Shown piece by piece: positions 31,954-39,783 of a stretch of 64,000 bases of DNA. This stretch comes from Alphaproteobacteria bacterium SS10 (lineage in GTDB: Bacteria > Pseudomonadota > Alphaproteobacteria > TMED2): positions 539,294 to 603,293 of the forward strand of contig JAHCML010000003.1 in NCBI GenBank assembly GCA_019192455.1. Direction: 5' to 3'. A model generated the notes under the pieces. That model saw nothing but the letters and a program-made list of their open reading frames with translations, was not told the DNA's origin and searched no databases. Every line of letters begins with the position of its first letter. Position 1 is the first letter of the stretch. Made by a program: the position numbers and the translations under genes.

Positions 31954-32979
31954 CTATCCCCAGTTAAACCGTTTCATCACCAGGTCGGCCAATCGGTCTG
32001 CCTCAAGGAGTGGTGAATAGCTGCTGGCTTCGAGCGATCCGGTGAAAGTTTGGGGCAGTTGGTGGCTCGCGCCATAGGCCGAAAGGCTATCGTGGAACCG
32101 CTTAAACTTCTGCGAATCACCAGGCAGGTTGTAGAGGAAGAGCGGTTTGCCGGTTGCCGCCGCCTCAGATGCCATCGAAACGCTGTCATTGGTTAGGATG
32201 ACCGCATCAGCGGCGCCTAAAAACGCAAAGTATGGGTTGTCACCCTGGCCATCCCAGAACCAATGCGGTGACTGATCCAAACCCGCTCGTAAGATACCTT
32301 CAGCCTCCGCACCCGTCCGGCGGGAGGTGGTGATCATGAAGCTGCAGTCACTTGCCGATGCCAGCGCGGTGAGGCGGTTGCATAGGTCGCTTGCGGCAGC
32401 CGTTGTCATCTGGTGGGTCTTGCTGGTTCCGCCAATCAATACGGCGTAGCGGGGCGTGGTAAGCGGCTTGAGCTGCTTACCGAACTGGTCAACGGCTGCT
32501 CTCAGGGTTTCCGGTGTAATTCGATTGAGGGCGCCAAGGCTTTCGACAACCTTGGGGCCAGGGGCCACCTGGTCATGGTTGGGCGGGATTACTAGGTCGT
32601 AATCGCTTTGCCCCAATCCAAATGGCATGGCCCAGCCGGTGGGGCGTTGTAGCTGGATGAGGGTAGTTGCGGGGTTTGCCCGCTTGATGGCCTGGGCTGG
32701 TACAATGCTTTGCCGACCGATCCCAATGACCAGATCGGACCAGGGCGCCTCTAGCGCATCAGTACCGCCTGCAAGGACGGACAGGCTGCGCGGTGATAGC
32801 CAGGGGGCCAATGTCCGCCAGGGCTGCTTTAAACCGACGCTCTTAGCCTCTACCGCGAAACCCGGTAGTCGGCGCCCTAAGGCTTCTGCCAGGCCAAGGC
32901 CCTGATTGCGCATTCCAGCGGCATCAGCGCTAAGCACCCAGCAGGTTTTTGGCGTGGATTTGGCGGCGGAGGCGATCAT
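31954..32979 (-). CDS. ELM1 family protein (mitochondrial-fission ELM1-like)
   Basis: A 341-residue protein of the ELM1 family, named after a plant mitochondrial fission factor but widespread in Alphaproteobacteria. The fold resembles GT-B glycosyltransferases: WVLSADAAGMRNQGLGLAEAL at the N-terminus, IGIGRQSI, VLIGGTSKTH opening the second half, and the DSVSMASEAAATGKPLFLY motif where a nucleotide sugar would sit. The bacterial role is unknown; a link to cell-envelope sugars is inference. The gene stands alone between trxB and lrp. Confidence 0.8.
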   Translation of the reverse strand: MIASAAKSTPKTCWVLSADAAGMRNQGLGLAEALGRRLPGFAVEAKSVGLKQPWRTLAPWLSPRSLSVLAGGTDALEAPWSDLVIGIGRQSIVPAQAIKRANPATTLIQLQRPTGWAMPFGLGQSDYDLVIPPNHDQVAPGPKVVESLGALNRITPETLRAAVDQFGKQLKPLTTPRYAVLIGGTSKTHQMTTAAASDLCNRLTALASASDCSFMITTSRRTGAEAEGILRAGLDQSPHWFWDGQGDNPYFAFLGAADAVILTNDSVSMASEAAATGKPLFLYNLPGDSQKFKRFHDSLSAYGASHQLPQTFTGSLEASSYSPLLEADRLADLVMKRFNWG

Positions 32980-33679: not shown

Positions 33680-34249
33680 AGGCGGCCGCTCTTTGTAGAA
33701 ATCAGGCCAGCGTTTCTGAACGATGGGGCTGTGGGCTGCAAAAGCATGGCAGGTGTTGAGCAGCGGCGGCGGTTTTGCCGGGTCGCTGACCTCCCCCTCA
33801 ACGGGCTTCTTATTTTTCCGCGCTAGGTAGGGATAGACCGTTTGGAACGCCGTGGTGGCCACGGGGCCCAGCAATTCAGTGATGTGGGTACAGCCCTGAA
33901 TGCCGCCAAAGCGGGATTTGGTCTGTTTGGTCCAGCCGGGACCAATGCGCAGGCCGATCAGCTCTTTATAGACCGGTGTGATGTTGCCGCAGATGCCAAA
34001 CGGGCTGCCATCGGTGGAGGCCTCAGCATCGACCACGGTCAGGCCATCATCTACGGTAATGCGCAGCCACATATCGTGGATGGGATCACCAGGGGTGATG
34101 TCGCCCCGCTCATGATTGTGGAAGGCATAGGCTTTGGTATCGCGCAGATGCCCCTCAATATCCCAGAGACCATCTTCGCGCAGATAACCACGGCAGTGGA
34201 TTTCCCGATGATGGATTGGCTCACGTTTAACCGTCGGCGTTAAAGGCAC
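33659..34249 (-). CDS. DUF2889 domain-containing protein
   Basis: A 196-residue soluble protein of an uncharacterised proteobacterial family. Family landmarks are HHREIHCRGYLREDGLWDIEGHL, the HDMWLRITVDD strand, GPGWTKQ and RFGGIQGCTHITELL. No catalytic residue set is recognised. The last residues form a Lys/Pro-rich tail. It lies between lrp (convergent) and accA, 29 bases downstream of accA on the same strand, so co-transcription with accA is likely. Confidence 0.85.
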   Translation of the reverse strand: MPLTPTVKREPIHHREIHCRGYLREDGLWDIEGHLRDTKAYAFHNHERGDITPGDPIHDMWLRITVDDGLTVVDAEASTDGSPFGICGNITPVYKELIGLRIGPGWTKQTKSRFGGIQGCTHITELLGPVATTAFQTVYPYLARKNKKPVEGEVSDPAKPPPLLNTCHAFAAHSPIVQKRWPDFYKERPPEKAKGG

Positions 34250-34278
34250 GGCGTTATGCTCCCATCAATCGGTTGCGC

Positions 34279-35235
34279 TTAAGAGCTGAGGTGATGTCCC
34301 ATCTCTAAGAAGCGCTCACGGCGGCGCAGCTTGATCGCCTCGCCATCCATATCGTCAAACTGGCCGAGCACTTCGGTAATTTGATTGCCGACGCGCTTAA
34401 TCATGGTGTCACGGGCACGGTGGGCACCGCCCAGTGGCTCCTCAATGATCCGGTCGATGACGTTTAGCTGCAGCAGATCCTGCGCGGTCAGGCGCAGGGC
34501 GGCGGCGGCATCGCCAGCGGCGGTTGCGCTGCGCCACAGGATCGACGCGCAACCCTCCGGTGAGATCACCGAGTAGATTGAGTGTTCGAGCATCATGACG
34601 CTGTCGCCGGTCGCGATTGCAATCGCACCACCGGAACCACCCTCACCAATCACGACGGAGATGATCGGCACGCGGATGTCCAAGCAAACATCGATAGAAG
34701 AGGCAATCGCCTCAGCCTGGCCGCGTTCCTCAGCCTCAATGCCGGGATAAGCACCCGCCGTATCAACAAAGGTGATGACGGGCAGTTGGAAACGGTCAGC
34801 GAGGCGCATCAGGCGCTGGGCCTTCCGATAGCCCTCAGGCTTCGGCATACCGAAATTATGCTTCACCCGGCTTTCAGTGTCTGAGCCCTTCTCCTGACCA
34901 ATCACCACGCAGCTTTGGCCTTGGAAACGGGCGAGGCCGCCAATGATTGCCTGATCCTCGGCAAATAGGCGGTCACCGGCCAGCTCAGTGAACTCGGTGA
35001 AGAGCTCATCCAGATAGTCTTTGAAGTGGGGCCGGGTGGGGTGGCGTGCGACCTGAACCTTCTGTGCTGGTGTCAGCTTAGTATAGGTCTGGCGCAGCAT
35101 GCGCTCGATCTTGCCTTGAAGACGCTCAATCTCCTCATCGATATCGAAGCCTTCTTCCTCGGTACCGATCGAGCGGAGCTCGACAATCTTGCTTTCCAAT
35201 TCGGCGATTGGTTTTTCGAAATCCAGATAGCTCAT
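34279..35235 (-). CDS. accA: Acetyl-CoA carboxylase carboxyltransferase subunit alpha
   Basis: One half of the carboxyltransferase that moves CO2 from biotin to acetyl-CoA, starting fatty-acid synthesis. The 318 residues begin [17 protein letters not shown] as usual. The crotonase-type core shows [35 protein letters not shown], the glycine-rich [15 protein letters not shown] and [15 protein letters not shown]. The AccD partner is not in the window. The accA, xerD, aroK and aroB neighbourhood is typical of Alphaproteobacteria. Confidence 0.97.
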
Positions 35236-35340
35236 AGCGCAATGCGTGGTTGAACGAATGGGCCGGGTTACACCCGGGCTGGGCGCGCATCATAGGAATT
35301 TACGCCAGCGTGAAAAGCCGAAAACGTCGATCCGGTGAAG

Positions 35341-36207
35341 CTACTTGGCTGACTTGCCCAGGCTGGGGGCGCTGCCAAGGGTATTGGATAGGGGGGCGAG
35401 GGGCCCTTCAAGCGGCGCTTCCAGCTCATTGGCAAGCTCCTTTACCGCCGCAATTCGCTTGTCGATTGAGGGGTGGGTGCGCAGCATCTCAAAGTCATTT
35501 AGCAGCCCGCCACCGGCCTCAATATTGGCTGCATCGAGGGTTTCAAACAGATCGACGGCACCATTTGCATGCCCATACTCGCGTACCAGGGCGCGGAGGG
35601 CATCGGCATCGGCTTGGCGCTCTGCCTCTCGGCTAAAACCGAGCCGTAGCAAGCCACCAGCGCCCTGGAAGATGTCTGTGCTGACACCCTCGCCACCGAA
35701 AAAGGCGGTGTAGAACAGGGCCATAATTGCAGCGCCAAAGAGATTGGCCGCCACATCTCGGTTTTTGATGTGGGCAATCTCATGGGCCATCACCATGGCC
35801 AGTTCGTTCTCGCTCTTTACGTTTGAGAGCAGGCCACCAAGGATGATTACCTGGCCACCAACGGTGGCAAAGGCGTTCACCTGCGGGTCATTATCGTAAT
35901 GAACGGTGATCCGCATATCCTCGGGCAGGCGCATATGTCGGGCTAACCGATCTGCTAATTCCTGGAGCTCTAATGCTCTGCCCGAGTCTGGCCGGGTGAC
36001 GGCCTGGGGTGCAAAATGCTCAACCACCGCGAGCTCATAGGAGAATGGGATCATCCGACCAACGGCGCCACCCAGCAGCATCAGGCCGAACATCACAGCG
36101 ACAAGCAGGCCAAGGCCACCAATGCCCAAAAGCATAAGGTCGCGAAGCCCGCTATCCTTACCTCGGTTCATATGGTCCGGGGGAATGGGGTTGCTGTACT
36201 CGACCAT
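35341..36207 (-). CDS. M48 family membrane metallopeptidase
   Basis: A zinc protease anchored by one strong membrane helix (LMLLGIGGLGLLVAVMFGLMLLGG) near the N-terminus. Motifs are HEIAH for zinc, with AERQADADAL supplying the third ligand, and THPSIDKRI near the end. The ATG at 36207 (MVEYSNPIPPD) is chosen because it follows the stop of the upstream gene by ten bases; the earlier candidate at 36294 would overlap that gene. It is the last gene of an apparent three-gene operon with two YbjQ-family proteins. Substrates are unknown. Confidence 0.88.
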   Translation of the reverse strand: MVEYSNPIPPDHMNRGKDSGLRDLMLLGIGGLGLLVAVMFGLMLLGGAVGRMIPFSYELAVVEHFAPQAVTRPDSGRALELQELADRLARHMRLPEDMRITVHYDNDPQVNAFATVGGQVIILGGLLSNVKSENELAMVMAHEIAHIKNRDVAANLFGAAIMALFYTAFFGGEGVSTDIFQGAGGLLRLGFSREAERQADADALRALVREYGHANGAVDLFETLDAANIEAGGGLLNDFEMLRTHPSIDKRIAAVKELANELEAPLEGPLAPLSNTLGSAPSLGKSAK

Positions 36208-36217
36208 AACGCTGGGT

Positions 36218-36673
36218 TCAGCTGCGTCGGCTGGTTGGAATGACGGCGGTACCGTAGGCCAGCACCTCGATGGAGCCAACATTCCGTCGGCCACCTTTGA
36301 ACACCGATGATGTTTCCAGGCGGACGTTGAATATTGATGTGGCGCCCATTGATTTGGCCTCAGCCTTCATGCGCAGGATTGCCTCACGGCGACTACGGTC
36401 AATTAGGCTTTCATAAGTGCCCAATCGGCCACCGAAGATTTGCCGAAGGCCAGCGATAAAGCGCTTAAAATAGTCGACTGAGATCACCGCCGAGCCGCGT
36501 ACCAATGTAACCTTCGGCACGGTCTCACTCTCAGGCAGGTATTTGGATGAGATCACGAGGACGGGCTGCAGCTCAGCTTCCCGTTTTCGGATACTGGCGT
36601 AATGCCGCTTCTCGGTGATCGTGCCGACGCCATATCCCAGGATCATCAGCAAGATAAATAGACCGAATTCCAT
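36218..36673 (-). CDS. YbjQ-family protein with N-terminal membrane helix
   Basis: A 151-residue member of the YbjQ/UPF0145 family (often called heavy-metal-binding domain) that carries an extra N-terminal helix (FGLFILLMILGYGVG-like), so it is probably membrane-tethered. The core follows the family pattern: VTLVRGSAVISVDYFKRFIAGLR, then a helix with RSRREAILRMKAEAKSMGA and the final strand LAYGTAVI. It is six bases after a soluble paralogue and ten bases before the M48 protease. Confidence 0.8.
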   Translation of the reverse strand: MEFGLFILLMILGYGVGTITEKRHYASIRKREAELQPVLVISSKYLPESETVPKVTLVRGSAVISVDYFKRFIAGLRQIFGGRLGTYESLIDRSRREAILRMKAEAKSMGATSIFNVRLETSSVFKGGRRNVGSIEVLAYGTAVIPTSRRS

Positions 36674-36679
36674 GGCTGG

Positions 36680-37048
36680 TTACTCGGCCCGTTGGCTGGT
36701 CGGGACGCTGCTGCCGCCTTCACCGGCGGCGGCACGCTTGAGGACAACGGCAGTGCCATAGGCCATCAATTCGGACGCACCCTGGGTCACCGATGACGTA
36801 GCGAAACGGATGTTGAGAACAGCGTTGGCGCCAATAGCCTCGGCCTGTTCTTCCATGCGTTTCACAGCTTCCTCACGGCTATCGCGAAGCAGCTCGGTGT
36901 AGCCCTTAAGCTCACCACCGACGAGGTTCTTCAAGCCGGCCATAAAATCACGGCCTACATGCTTAGCCCGGACGGTGGAGCCCTGCACCACGCCCATATG
37001 CTTCACGACCCGGGCGCCGGGGACGTATTCGAGTGTTGTAAGGATCAT
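36680..37048 (-). CDS. YbjQ-family protein (UPF0145)
   Basis: A soluble YbjQ-type protein of 122 residues from the ATG at 37048 (MILTTLEYVPGARVV), preferred to 37108 because family members start at this strand. The core reads GSTVRAKHVGRDFMAGLKNLVGGELKGYTELL, then a charged helix, then ANAVLNIRFATSSV and LMAYGTAVVL. These proteins form pentamers or decamers in structural studies, but their function is unresolved. First gene of the YbjQ-YbjQ-M48 set. Confidence 0.85.
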   Translation of the reverse strand: MILTTLEYVPGARVVKHMGVVQGSTVRAKHVGRDFMAGLKNLVGGELKGYTELLRDSREEAVKRMEEQAEAIGANAVLNIRFATSSVTQGASELMAYGTAVVLKRAAAGEGGSSVPTSQRAE

Positions 37049-37130
37049 TGTGGTTCCATTCTTTGCGCTGGTGGCATCAGCACCATCGACCAATTCATCA
37101 TAAAGCAAAGCAGCTTATACTGCCCATTGC

Positions 37131-38111
37131 TTATATAGACGTCTCAGAATTCGATTTTGCTAGTGGATGGTGGTTCAAAACTGCCTCGCGCAGCCTTTTG
37201 CTCGAGACATGGGTGTAAATCTGGGTGGTCGTGATATCGGCATGACCAAGCAGTTGCTGCACCACGCGTAGGTCGGCGCCATGATCCAGTAGGTGGGTGG
37301 CAAAAGCATGACGCAAGACGTGTGGGCTGACCCTTGCAGGGTCGATCCCAGCCTCAATGGCTAATGCCTTCACCAACTGGCCGAAACGTTGGCGGGTGAG
37401 GTGCCCAGCGGCCGCCCGTGACGACGGGAAAAGCCAGCGATTATCCTCTGCCTTCTGGCCGTTCGGACAGAAAACCCCACGCATGGGGAGATAGGCATTT
37501 AGCGCAGCGCGGGCCGCATCGCCCAGCGGCACCAGCCGCTCTTTCCCGCCCTTGCCCTTAATCGTGGCAAAGCGCTGCTCCCGGTCGATGGAGTTGATCG
37601 GTAGGCCAACCAATTCCGATACCCGCAGCCCGGTGGCATAGAGTAGCTCAACCAGGCACAGCAAACGGGCCGCATCATGCTCGTCCCAGTTATTGGCAGC
37701 ATCGAGCAGGTCGAGAACCTCTTGCTCGCTCAATGTCTTAGGCAGGCGTCGTCCGGATTTTGGCGGATCGATATGGCGTGTTGGGTCGTCGACCCGCTGC
37801 CCCTCAGAGACCAGAAACTTAAAGAATTGGCGAAAGGCGGATAGGCGCCGTGCGGCTGTACGCGGGTTTACATCATCGGCGGCCAAGTGGCTGAAATAGT
37901 CGCGCAGGTGGTTTTCGGCCGCGTCCGCTGGTCCGACGCCCTTGCCATCAAGGAAGCCAGCCAAATCGGCCAGGTCACGCCGGTAAGCATCCCGGGTGTT
38001 TGCACTGGCACCGCGCTCGGCGGTCAGCATGTCCAGAAACGGCTCGAGTTGGCGGATGTTATCCGCCTTGGCTTGTTTGCCCGCCTTACTCGTCGTTCTG
38101 CCCTGTGCCAT
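37131..38111 (-). CDS. xerD: Site-specific tyrosine recombinase XerD
   Basis: With XerC it resolves chromosome dimers at dif. The 326 residues show an N-terminal core-binding domain (ERGASANTRDAYRRDL) and a complete catalytic set: Arg in LYATGLRVSEL, Lys in IKGKGGKERLVPL, HVLRHAFATHLL, the H of LLGHADITTTQIY and the nucleophile Tyr in IYTHV. It is a housekeeping recombinase by length and place near aroK/aroB/accA, not an integrase of a mobile element. Its start overlaps the end of the upstream gene by 26 bases. Confidence 0.95.
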   Translation of the reverse strand: MAQGRTTSKAGKQAKADNIRQLEPFLDMLTAERGASANTRDAYRRDLADLAGFLDGKGVGPADAAENHLRDYFSHLAADDVNPRTAARRLSAFRQFFKFLVSEGQRVDDPTRHIDPPKSGRRLPKTLSEQEVLDLLDAANNWDEHDAARLLCLVELLYATGLRVSELVGLPINSIDREQRFATIKGKGGKERLVPLGDAARAALNAYLPMRGVFCPNGQKAEDNRWLFPSSRAAAGHLTRQRFGQLVKALAIEAGIDPARVSPHVLRHAFATHLLDHGADLRVVQQLLGHADITTTQIYTHVSSKRLREAVLNHHPLAKSNSETSI

Positions 38112-39783
38112 CGAGATTTGCCGCCATTGCTGCGTTCAGCACGGCTTGCCTCGCCATGTCACGCGCTTCTTCCACTAGCCCGCCACGATGGAGGGCATCG
38201 GTCAACAGGGCGAGGGTTAGCGGCGATAACTCGGTTGAGCTGCGGTTACCAGCCAGCAACAGCGCCGCCATGCTGCGTTGGCCAAGGCTGGCATCACCTT
38301 CTGGCGCCGAAAGCAAGGCCGTGAGGGCGGCAAGGTCACCGTCATTGGCATCACCTGCTGGTGTTGCGAGGGCAGCAGCTAGGGCCTGAGTGGTTGGCGC
38401 CTGACCTGTACCGGCTAGGGCCGCCGCTGCCACCGCTTGAACCGGGGCGAATTCGTCGCTTTGTGGCAGGCTGGGCGGTGTGCCGGCGGGTTGCGCTAGA
38501 CGTTGGGCAAAGCTCGCGATCACCGCTGATGGATCCTGTCCGGCCTGACGCAGCCAAAGTGCGGCACGATCAGCCTCACCATGGGCGGCGAGCAGGAAGA
38601 ACGCCGCCGGTGCAATAACCTCGGTCCCCGGTCCTGGTTGGATTGTAGCTAGGCCACCAATAAAGGCCGGAACCAGTGCACCATCGATTGGTTTGGCACG
38701 CTCCCACGCAGCGGCTAGCAGCTGGGCCTTCGCGGCATCGAGGGTTTCACTAGCCAGCGCACTAAGTAATAGAGCTGCTTCCCCAGGGGTTCCCTGATCA
38801 GCGGTACCCAGCGGGTCCTCAAAGTCGGCCGTGCGGAACCCAGCGGAGGCGAGGCCACCCTGGAACTCATCAGCCTCAAGCCAGCCATGGCGGGCCAACA
38901 GGACCAGGCTGTCTAGTGCACCCGGTACATCCTTTAGCTCGCCATCTTGTTGGTTCAAATGTGCGAGGCGGGTTAGCAGTGTCGGGCTATCCGGCAAGCT
39001 GGCACCGGCCTTAATCAAGATGGTCAGTGCAACGGCTTGGTTAATGGGATCAACGGCGTCCAGCGGGTTCTCGATCCGGCTATCGGCGGCGAGGGCACTA
39101 GCGGCGGCCAAGACCGCGTCGTCGGTATCCCCGGCTTCCCGAAGCAGGTTGATCAGGAAGTTAGCGGCGCCGGTATTATTGTCGGCGAGCTGGCAGAGCA
39201 GATCGAGACGGTCCCAAAACCCGTCAGCGTTAATCCCATCAGGGTCATTGTCGCGGTCGGTTTCCCGCAAAACTACACAGGCGCCATCTTCATCCCCCTC
39301 AAGCAGGAGAGCCGTCGCTCGCAGACGGTCAGCCCGGGCCGCACCATTATTACGGGCGGATCGTGCAAGGCTTGCGGCCTCATCCAGATAGCCGAGCTTT
39401 AGCAGCGCTTCAGCCCGGTCGAGGGCAAAACTGGCATCACTGCCCCGCGGTGCGATGGCCGTGCTGGCCAGGGCGCGACGGGCCAGGCTTCTTAACGCTG
39501 GAACATGGATATCTGCCGGCGTGCTTTGAACCAGTGCTGATGCCAGCGCAGCGTCCGTGCTTTGCCAAAGGTTCAGCGACATGCCACCATCACGGCCTGG
39601 GTCTAGGATACCCAGGCCGGCACCGGGTTGGTTGCGGGTTAGCGGCACCTGTTGGACGCCGTCGCCACGCTGGGCCCAGGCGGCACCGGGCATCACCATG
39701 GTCAGGGTCAGGGTCAGGGTCAGGGTCAGGACAGCAGCCCCGATAAGGCGGCTAAATCGGTTATCGCTGCTGAAGGGCATCAT
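38086..39783 (-). CDS. Large secreted Ala/Leu-rich helical-repeat protein
   Basis: A 565-residue exported protein from ATG 39783 (a second ATG follows at once). The signal peptide has a core of alternating Leu-Thr (TLTLTLTLTM) and a cleavage site after PGAAWA. The rest is alpha-helical, rich in Ala, Leu and Asp, with repeat-like helix pairs (RADRLRATALLLEGDEDGA and AALWLRQAGQDPSAV) that recall TPR or Sel1-like solenoids. I do not recognise a family. Proteins of this kind are frequent between xerD and aroK in related bacteria. A small one-helix membrane protein precedes it with a 23-base overlap. Confidence 0.75.
   Translation of the reverse strand: MMPFSSDNRFSRLIGAAVLTLTLTLTLTMVMPGAAWAQRGDGVQQVPLTRNQPGAGLGILDPGRDGGMSLNLWQSTDAALASALVQSTPADIHVPALRSLARRALASTAIAPRGSDASFALDRAEALLKLGYLDEAASLARSARNNGAARADRLRATALLLEGDEDGACVVLRETDRDNDPDGINADGFWDRLDLLCQLADNNTGAANFLINLLREAGDTDDAVLAAASALAADSRIENPLDAVDPINQAVALTILIKAGASLPDSPTLLTRLAHLNQQDGELKDVPGALDSLVLLARHGWLEADEFQGGLASAGFRTADFEDPLGTADQGTPGEAALLLSALASETLDAAKAQLLAAAWERAKPIDGALVPAFIGGLATIQPGPGTEVIAPAAFFLLAAHGEADRAALWLRQAGQDPSAVIASFAQRLAQPAGTPPSLPQSDEFAPVQAVAAAALAGTGQAPTTQALAAALATPAGDANDGDLAALTALLSAPEGDASLGQRSMAALLLAGNRSSTELSPLTLALLTDALHRGGLVEEARDMARQAVLNAAMAANLDGTGQNDE
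39700..39729. repeat. Hexanucleotide repeat (GGTCAG)x5 inside a signal-peptide codon run
   Basis: Five exact tandem copies of GGTCAG on the plus strand (CTGACC on the coding strand) encode the Leu-Thr repeats in the hydrophobic core of the secreted protein at 38086-39783. Because the unit is six bases, gain or loss of copies adds or removes two residues without a frameshift. Confidence 0.92.

Follow-up and report, generated by a model that had tools for sequence, protein, structure and literature searches.

A conserved gene unit of two YbjQ paralogues and a membrane-anchored M48 metalloprotease

BepA, the periplasmic M48 metalloprotease of Escherichia coli, contains a plug whose histidine occupies the zinc and whose mobility is required for function; the corresponding HPx4R motif is family-wide, and its authors proposed a role in autoregulation (accessible part of PMC7950410). 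The M48 protein of the locus analysed here has the predicted catalytic fold, the zinc ligands and the HPx4R plug in common with BepA, but it is devoid of the TPR domain and possesses a membrane anchor and dedicated YbjQ partners; moreover, other M48 genes are present in its source genome, including one encoding 485 aa that was provisionally taken for BepA by its length. HtpX, the inner-membrane M48 protease with four transmembrane helices, resembles our protein as a membrane-bound zinc protease and differs from it by its several helices, where the protein described here has one strong N-terminal helix.

The proteins of the YbjQ family (UPF0145/DUF74) are widespread and pentamers have been solved, but we found no agreed function for them in the searchable literature. 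Homologues are described as pentameric in the accessible parts of PMC2954204 and PMC4092069, the former reporting unequal subunits in the 1vr4 pentamer. Co-evolution of the YbjQ domain with the recombinase domain PF02796 is mentioned in the accessible part of PMC6822775, whose authors leave its plausibility open. The Pfam label of the family (PF01906), "putative heavy-metal-binding", is a guess, heavy-metal binding being backed by the Pfam name only. The work cited for a thiamin phosphate synthase activity of YbjQ reportedly concerns YjbQ, an unrelated family, through a swap of names. We therefore made no use of this activity, which section 2.1.2 of PMC7084401, the part accessible to us, assigns to YbjQ. 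Both small proteins of our locus belong to PF01906 and share the fold of the described pentamers (1vr4, 1y2i), but they form a paralogous pair of which one member is membrane-anchored, and they are linked to a protease.

Two further systems deserve comparison. RcsF and the periplasmic domain of IgaA, which are involved in Rcs envelope-stress sensing and act outside the cytoplasm, have a YbjQ-like fold in common with our membrane-anchored YbjQ; however, the YbjQ domain of the latter is predicted to be cytoplasmic, we know of no protease partner of RcsF or IgaA, and similarity of fold is no evidence of a common function. The SPFH scaffolds of HflKC-FtsH and prohibitin-OMA1 are membrane-tethered rings that control a membrane protease and may offer an analogy for the way our locus works; they differ in that a Pfam scan found no SPFH domain in our three proteins and that FtsH is not part of this locus. 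No published YbjQ-M48 unit was found in the full-text literature, a search that covered few subscription papers and does not prove absence. The component families are known; what appears to be undescribed is their combination, together with a YbjQ that carries a membrane anchor and the fusion reported below.

The unit lies on the minus strand of the window, i.e. the whole stretch of 64,000 nucleotides that was analysed, and begins with ybjQ1 (36680..37048), which encodes a soluble YbjQ of 122 aa. It is followed after 6 bases by ybjQ2 (36218..36673), encoding a membrane-anchored YbjQ of 151 aa with an N-terminal hydrophobic helix at about residues 2-34 preceding the YbjQ domain, and after 10 further bases by m48 (35341..36207), encoding a membrane-anchored M48 metalloprotease of 288 aa. 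Both flanking genes are also on the minus strand and outside the unit: a xerD-like recombinase gene (37131..38111, PF00589) 82 bases upstream and accA (34279..35235, PF03255, 474 bits) 105 bases downstream. A sequence-only reading had described a soluble YbjQ, a membrane-tethered YbjQ and a membrane protease with these gaps, placed between accA and xerD; coordinates, Pfam matches and N-terminal helices bear out this description, and Pfam confirms both flanks. By tblastn, a xerD-like gene was also found upstream of the unit in one relative (G659, two matches, both in overlapping loci of that genome). Scanning 34200-38200 for promoters and terminators returned 4 and 6 sites, where shuffled sequence gave means of 1.9 and 3.2, an excess that is not decisive. 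No further YbjQ gene was found in the source genome (3.19 Mb, 16 contigs), which has six M48 matches. The top match of the genome (18239-18805, 142 bits, 289-aa frame) is a further M48 in the same window and is possibly HtpX, and two other matches (G000:C3:294869-295495 and G000:C14:8974-9600) score identically, which indicates either a gene duplication or a redundant assembly. Elsewhere in the window (31954-32979), a bacterial protein matches the "Mitochondrial fission ELM1" domain over its full length (PF06258, 299 bits).

Both small proteins score above the curated cut-off of PF01906 (YbjQ_1, 23 bits), with 131.7 bits for YbjQ1 and 90.1 bits for YbjQ2. YbjQ1 has solved relatives (1y2i, 2gtc and 1vr4) and was aligned with its homologues in 57 rows (alignment A3). 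The AF2 model of YbjQ2 (mean pLDDT 88.1) matches 1vr4_B, a subunit of a YbjQ pentamer, with Z 12.2 (81 residues aligned, rmsd 1.7), with RcsF (Z 9.9) and the IgaA periplasmic domain (Z 9.6) as weaker matches; similarity between RcsF and YbjQ has already been published (PMC4092069, accessible part). A GxxxG motif in the helix and an EKRHY..IRKRE stretch are conserved in YbjQ2 (alignment A2, 58 rows). By analogy with the solved homologues, these proteins may form a pentamer-type ring, which YbjQ1 and YbjQ2 might share as one mixed ring.

The M48 protein (108.2 bits against a curated PF01435 cut-off of 20.3) consists, in order, of an N-terminal tail (residues 1-23, 36139..36207, minus strand, delimited from alignment A1 and the list of relatives' N-termini), one strong transmembrane helix and a catalytic domain predicted to be BepA-like. 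Its catalytic residues are intact: H142, E143 and H146 of the HExxH motif and E196, the glutamate that serves as third ligand, are invariant in the 58 rows of A1, and so are H245, P246 and R251 of the HPx4R plug. Its AF2 model (pLDDT 87.8) matches BepA (6sar) with Z 19.1 over 187 residues (rmsd 2.9) and 3c37 with Z 18.5. Since the plug is invariant here and has been proposed to be autoregulatory in BepA, the enzyme is likely to be active yet restrained, and a partner relieving that restraint would be reasonable. Assignment to the named M48 families was rejected. The best NCBIfam score for HtpX was 49 bits against a cut-off of 341, far below every HtpX cut-off; BepA gave 60 bits against 570, for a protein of 288 aa in which the Pfam scan found no TPR region; and LoiP gave 25.5 bits against 365. 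In the relatives, the tail conforms to xYxNPxxPEGINxSxxxPLKEF, strictly in 43 of 76, the protein of the window being divergent. We rejected the form PEGIN[TAVI][ST] of this motif as a docking tag for clients: it occurs once in each of 16 of the 22 genomes searched and is absent from the other six, so that no genome has a second match. All five matches compared by hand (G452, G455, G461, G464 and G467) were located at the start of the M48 protein, the hand comparison covering these five of the 16.

Scanning the genomes of 84,980 species for proteins like YbjQ2 returned 113 relatives, and the 80 best were retained as loci. Among these best 80 of 113, a soluble YbjQ gene lies directly upstream of ybjQ2 in all 79 loci with enough contig (L086 starts at the end of a contig), and an M48 sequence lies directly downstream in 79 of 80, across about a dozen bacterial phyla; the 79 include two loci truncated where the contig ends (L022 and L036) and a third, L010, whose reading frame is broken. 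The one true exception, L049, has a convergent gene after ybjQ2 in place of m48. Gene order and strand are invariant throughout these 80 loci, with median gaps of 3.5 and 8 bases. Selection by similarity to a YbjQ2 with M48 beside it makes this set a biased one. Less biased counts were obtained from genome draws, a YbjQ2 of this type being defined by at least 92 bits with profile A2 and an M48 of this type by at least 190 bits with profile A1; a limited number of candidates was scored per genome, so that some genomes with YbjQ2 may be missed. In a draw of 398 genomes from the phylum, 12 had YbjQ2: seven with a separate adjacent M48 gene, three with a fusion, one with the YbjQ pair without M48 (G074) and one in which the YbjQ is a hybrid and the M48 is broken (G136). 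A draw of 385 genomes from the class gave nine, with six separate M48 genes, two fusions and one pair without M48 (G869). When both draws are pooled (two genomes shared), an intact M48 is adjacent or fused in 16 of the 19 distinct genomes with YbjQ2. Conversely, an M48 of this type was present in 10 of the 398 genomes drawn from the phylum, in all 10 beside or inside YbjQ2, the next-best M48 scoring 172 bits. Among 149 genomes drawn from Acidobacteriota, YbjQ2 of this type was found in one, the centre genome itself. These counts indicate a unit that is rare but strongly linked.

A chance neighbourhood was dismissed on the following grounds. Only one of 29 lone-YbjQ loci, L090, has an M48 gene less than about 1.5 kb off, with a distance of two genes, and no YbjQ was found near the 20 next-best-scoring M48 loci outside the system. 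The trio is not a local accident, and its recurrence is beyond chance; the possibility, which the sequence-only reading counted against itself, that YbjQ and M48 genes would show no conserved neighbourhood in other genomes fails on these counts. Clustering of the flanking ORFs of the 80 loci revealed no fourth conserved gene. The biggest cluster outside the trio holds 22 proteins from 20 loci at scattered distances, and one inspected sequence resembles a histidine kinase; several clusters are limited to Granulosicoccaceae-type loci, and one of 13 proteins corresponds to antisense frames over the YbjQ genes.

In four genomes, YbjQ2 and M48 are encoded by a single ORF of 453 or 437 aa (G297, G407 and G411 of one genus, and G839 of another family), preceded by a soluble YbjQ. 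An assembly error is unlikely, because four genomes carry such an ORF, and all four may stem from one ancient event. Pfam recognises both domains in one chain in the L143 fusion, and the joint of the fusions is the M48 tail, reading PDDGVNISHRNLLAEF in L143. These natural fusions show YbjQ2 to be physically tied to M48. In a tree built from the three proteins joined (74 rows), phylum labels are followed closely, with 10 label changes for a minimum of nine, and the unit of the window groups with other alphaproteobacterial units (support 100/98), while long branches leave the deeper joints unsure. The three proteins give concordant distance matrices (r 0.80, 0.80 and 0.72; none of 999 permutations was as high), and shared species ancestry accounts for part of this correlation. 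One locus titled Anaerolineae (L030) was treated as a binning error because it is 95-100% identical to the alphaproteobacterial L023; with this exception, the phyla among the 80 loci are ones that we take to have two membranes.

The charge distribution around the helices bears on the topology. In all 64 YbjQ2 sequences scored (those of 81 whose helix passed the hydropathy threshold), no K or R precedes the helix and a mean of 5.3 is found in the 20 residues that follow; the YbjQ domain is therefore predicted to be cytoplasmic. In the M48 protein, one strong helix is found near residue 25, and HExxH is followed by a weak hydrophobic stretch; of 71 helices scored for charge, 38 favour a tail inside the cell, 21 tie and 12 oppose it, which taken alone is weak evidence. 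The fusions contain a second hydrophobic helix between the YbjQ and M48 domains, and in those of L143 and L255 an R precedes this helix and the 20 residues after it are free of K and R; if it spans the membrane, the protease domain would be periplasmic. We thus predict that both YbjQ domains are cytoplasmic and the protease domain periplasmic, and the latter location agrees with the nearest folds, BepA and 3c37.

The association with M48 is not obligate. The YbjQ1-YbjQ2 pair occurs without M48 in L049, G074, G869, Haliovirga abyssi (Fusobacteriota) and Acinetobacter, where four of the six records found were inspected (L207, L208, L209 and L261). No M48 of this type was found elsewhere in the genomes of L049, G074 and G869, whose best scores are 127, 111 and 156 bits. 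The YbjQ pair is therefore the core and M48 its usual partner, with room left for other effectors. The sequence-only reading had suggested a complex of the three proteins: a physical complex within a conserved unit is now very probable in view of the natural fusions, but the YbjQ pair can do without M48, as several lineages demonstrate.

Other YbjQ neighbourhoods are varied, although the other YbjQ genes sampled mostly stand alone. In the four inspected Acinetobacter records, the gene immediately upstream of the pair is adeK, which belongs to the adeIJK efflux operon. L142 (G136:C110, 1504-2225) contains a hybrid YbjQ, YbjQ1-like in its first half and YbjQ2-like in its second, followed by the broken M48, which is either a decaying copy or an assembly error. 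In L170 (G188:C307, 4739-9415), several multi-YbjQ genes cluster around an M48 gene (151 bits with A1); the first of them encodes a protein with a hydrophobic helix at its C-terminus and overlaps the M48 gene by 20 bases, and three more genes with YbjQ matches follow. In the same class, repeated-YbjQ genes of L164 (G111:C53, 127-3796) adjoin TelA (toxic anion resistance, PF05816) without M48. Finally, L166 (3092-4168) and L169 (2494-3561) encode YbjQ domains fused to long uncharacterised C-terminal regions, and both proteins end in cysteine pairs that by eye resemble a zinc ribbon.

The reading that we prefer, and hold to be about evenly balanced between right and wrong, is that a membrane-tethered YbjQ ring acts across the inner membrane on an autoinhibited M48 protease, which it would either cluster or gate. 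YbjQ1, YbjQ2 and M48 would form one inner-membrane complex, in which YbjQ1 and the YbjQ domain of YbjQ2 would assemble in the cytoplasm as a pentamer-type ring tethered through the single helix of YbjQ2. This helix would pair with the single helix of M48, whose periplasmic, BepA-like domain would be kept inactive by the His-Pro plug of the family. The state or assembly of the ring would be signalled through the paired helices and the conserved cytoplasmic tail of M48, so as to cluster the protease and set the timing of its activity on envelope proteins. The gene unit, the intact active site, the fusions and the co-inheritance are observed parts of this scheme, in which folds and topology are predicted; the mixed ring, the helix pairing, the gating and the substrates are inferred. 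A role in envelope quality control, which the BepA-like fold suggests, is plausible.

A simpler arrangement, which we regard as rather unlikely, is a passive scaffold in which the YbjQ ring gathers M48 and its membrane clients in a patch, in the manner of SPFH and FtsH, without any transmembrane signal. The GxxxG motif of the YbjQ2 helix and the pentamers described in the accessible parts of PMC2954204 and PMC4092069 fit such clustering, which also needs no other gene, but a scaffold alone leaves the two distinct YbjQ paralogues and the conserved M48 tail unexplained. The signal could also run in the reverse direction, with the periplasmic M48 domain as the sensor, or as a processing enzyme, and the cytoplasmic assembly of YbjQ1 and YbjQ2 as the output, so that in genomes lacking M48 the pair could respond to other inputs; the pair indeed persists without M48, and no M48 of this type was found without the pair among the 398 genomes, but no output partner of YbjQ is known and none is conserved nearby, and we consider this improbable. 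Improbable too is the proposal of the sequence-only reading that the YbjQ assembly binds proteins and passes them to the protease, since, for all the physical tie provided by the fusions, charge rules and fusions predict that the membrane separates the YbjQ domains from the active site, making a direct hand-off of soluble substrates unlikely, and the M48 tail motif, in the form searched, is no shared client tag.

The gated protease can be extended to a broader picture, which we put forward tentatively as possible though doubtful: a new class of transmembrane proteolytic switch of outer-membrane bacteria, in which the cytoplasmic YbjQ1/YbjQ2 ring would sense an intracellular state and, through the paired helices, open the plugged periplasmic M48 domain. 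YbjQ proteins in general would then be modular sensor or assembly rings with interchangeable effectors, M48 being one of them. The trio is open to experiment, as it occurs in bacteria that are in culture (Amphritea atlantica, Reinekea blandensis, Oceanobacter kriegii and Sulfidibacter corallicola). A conserved, fusion-tied partner recasts the function of YbjQ as a question about a measurable protease activity. If the gated complex is real, it would add to the envelope proteases a membrane M48 with a dedicated cytoplasmic regulator, distinct from HtpX, BepA, LoiP and YcaL.
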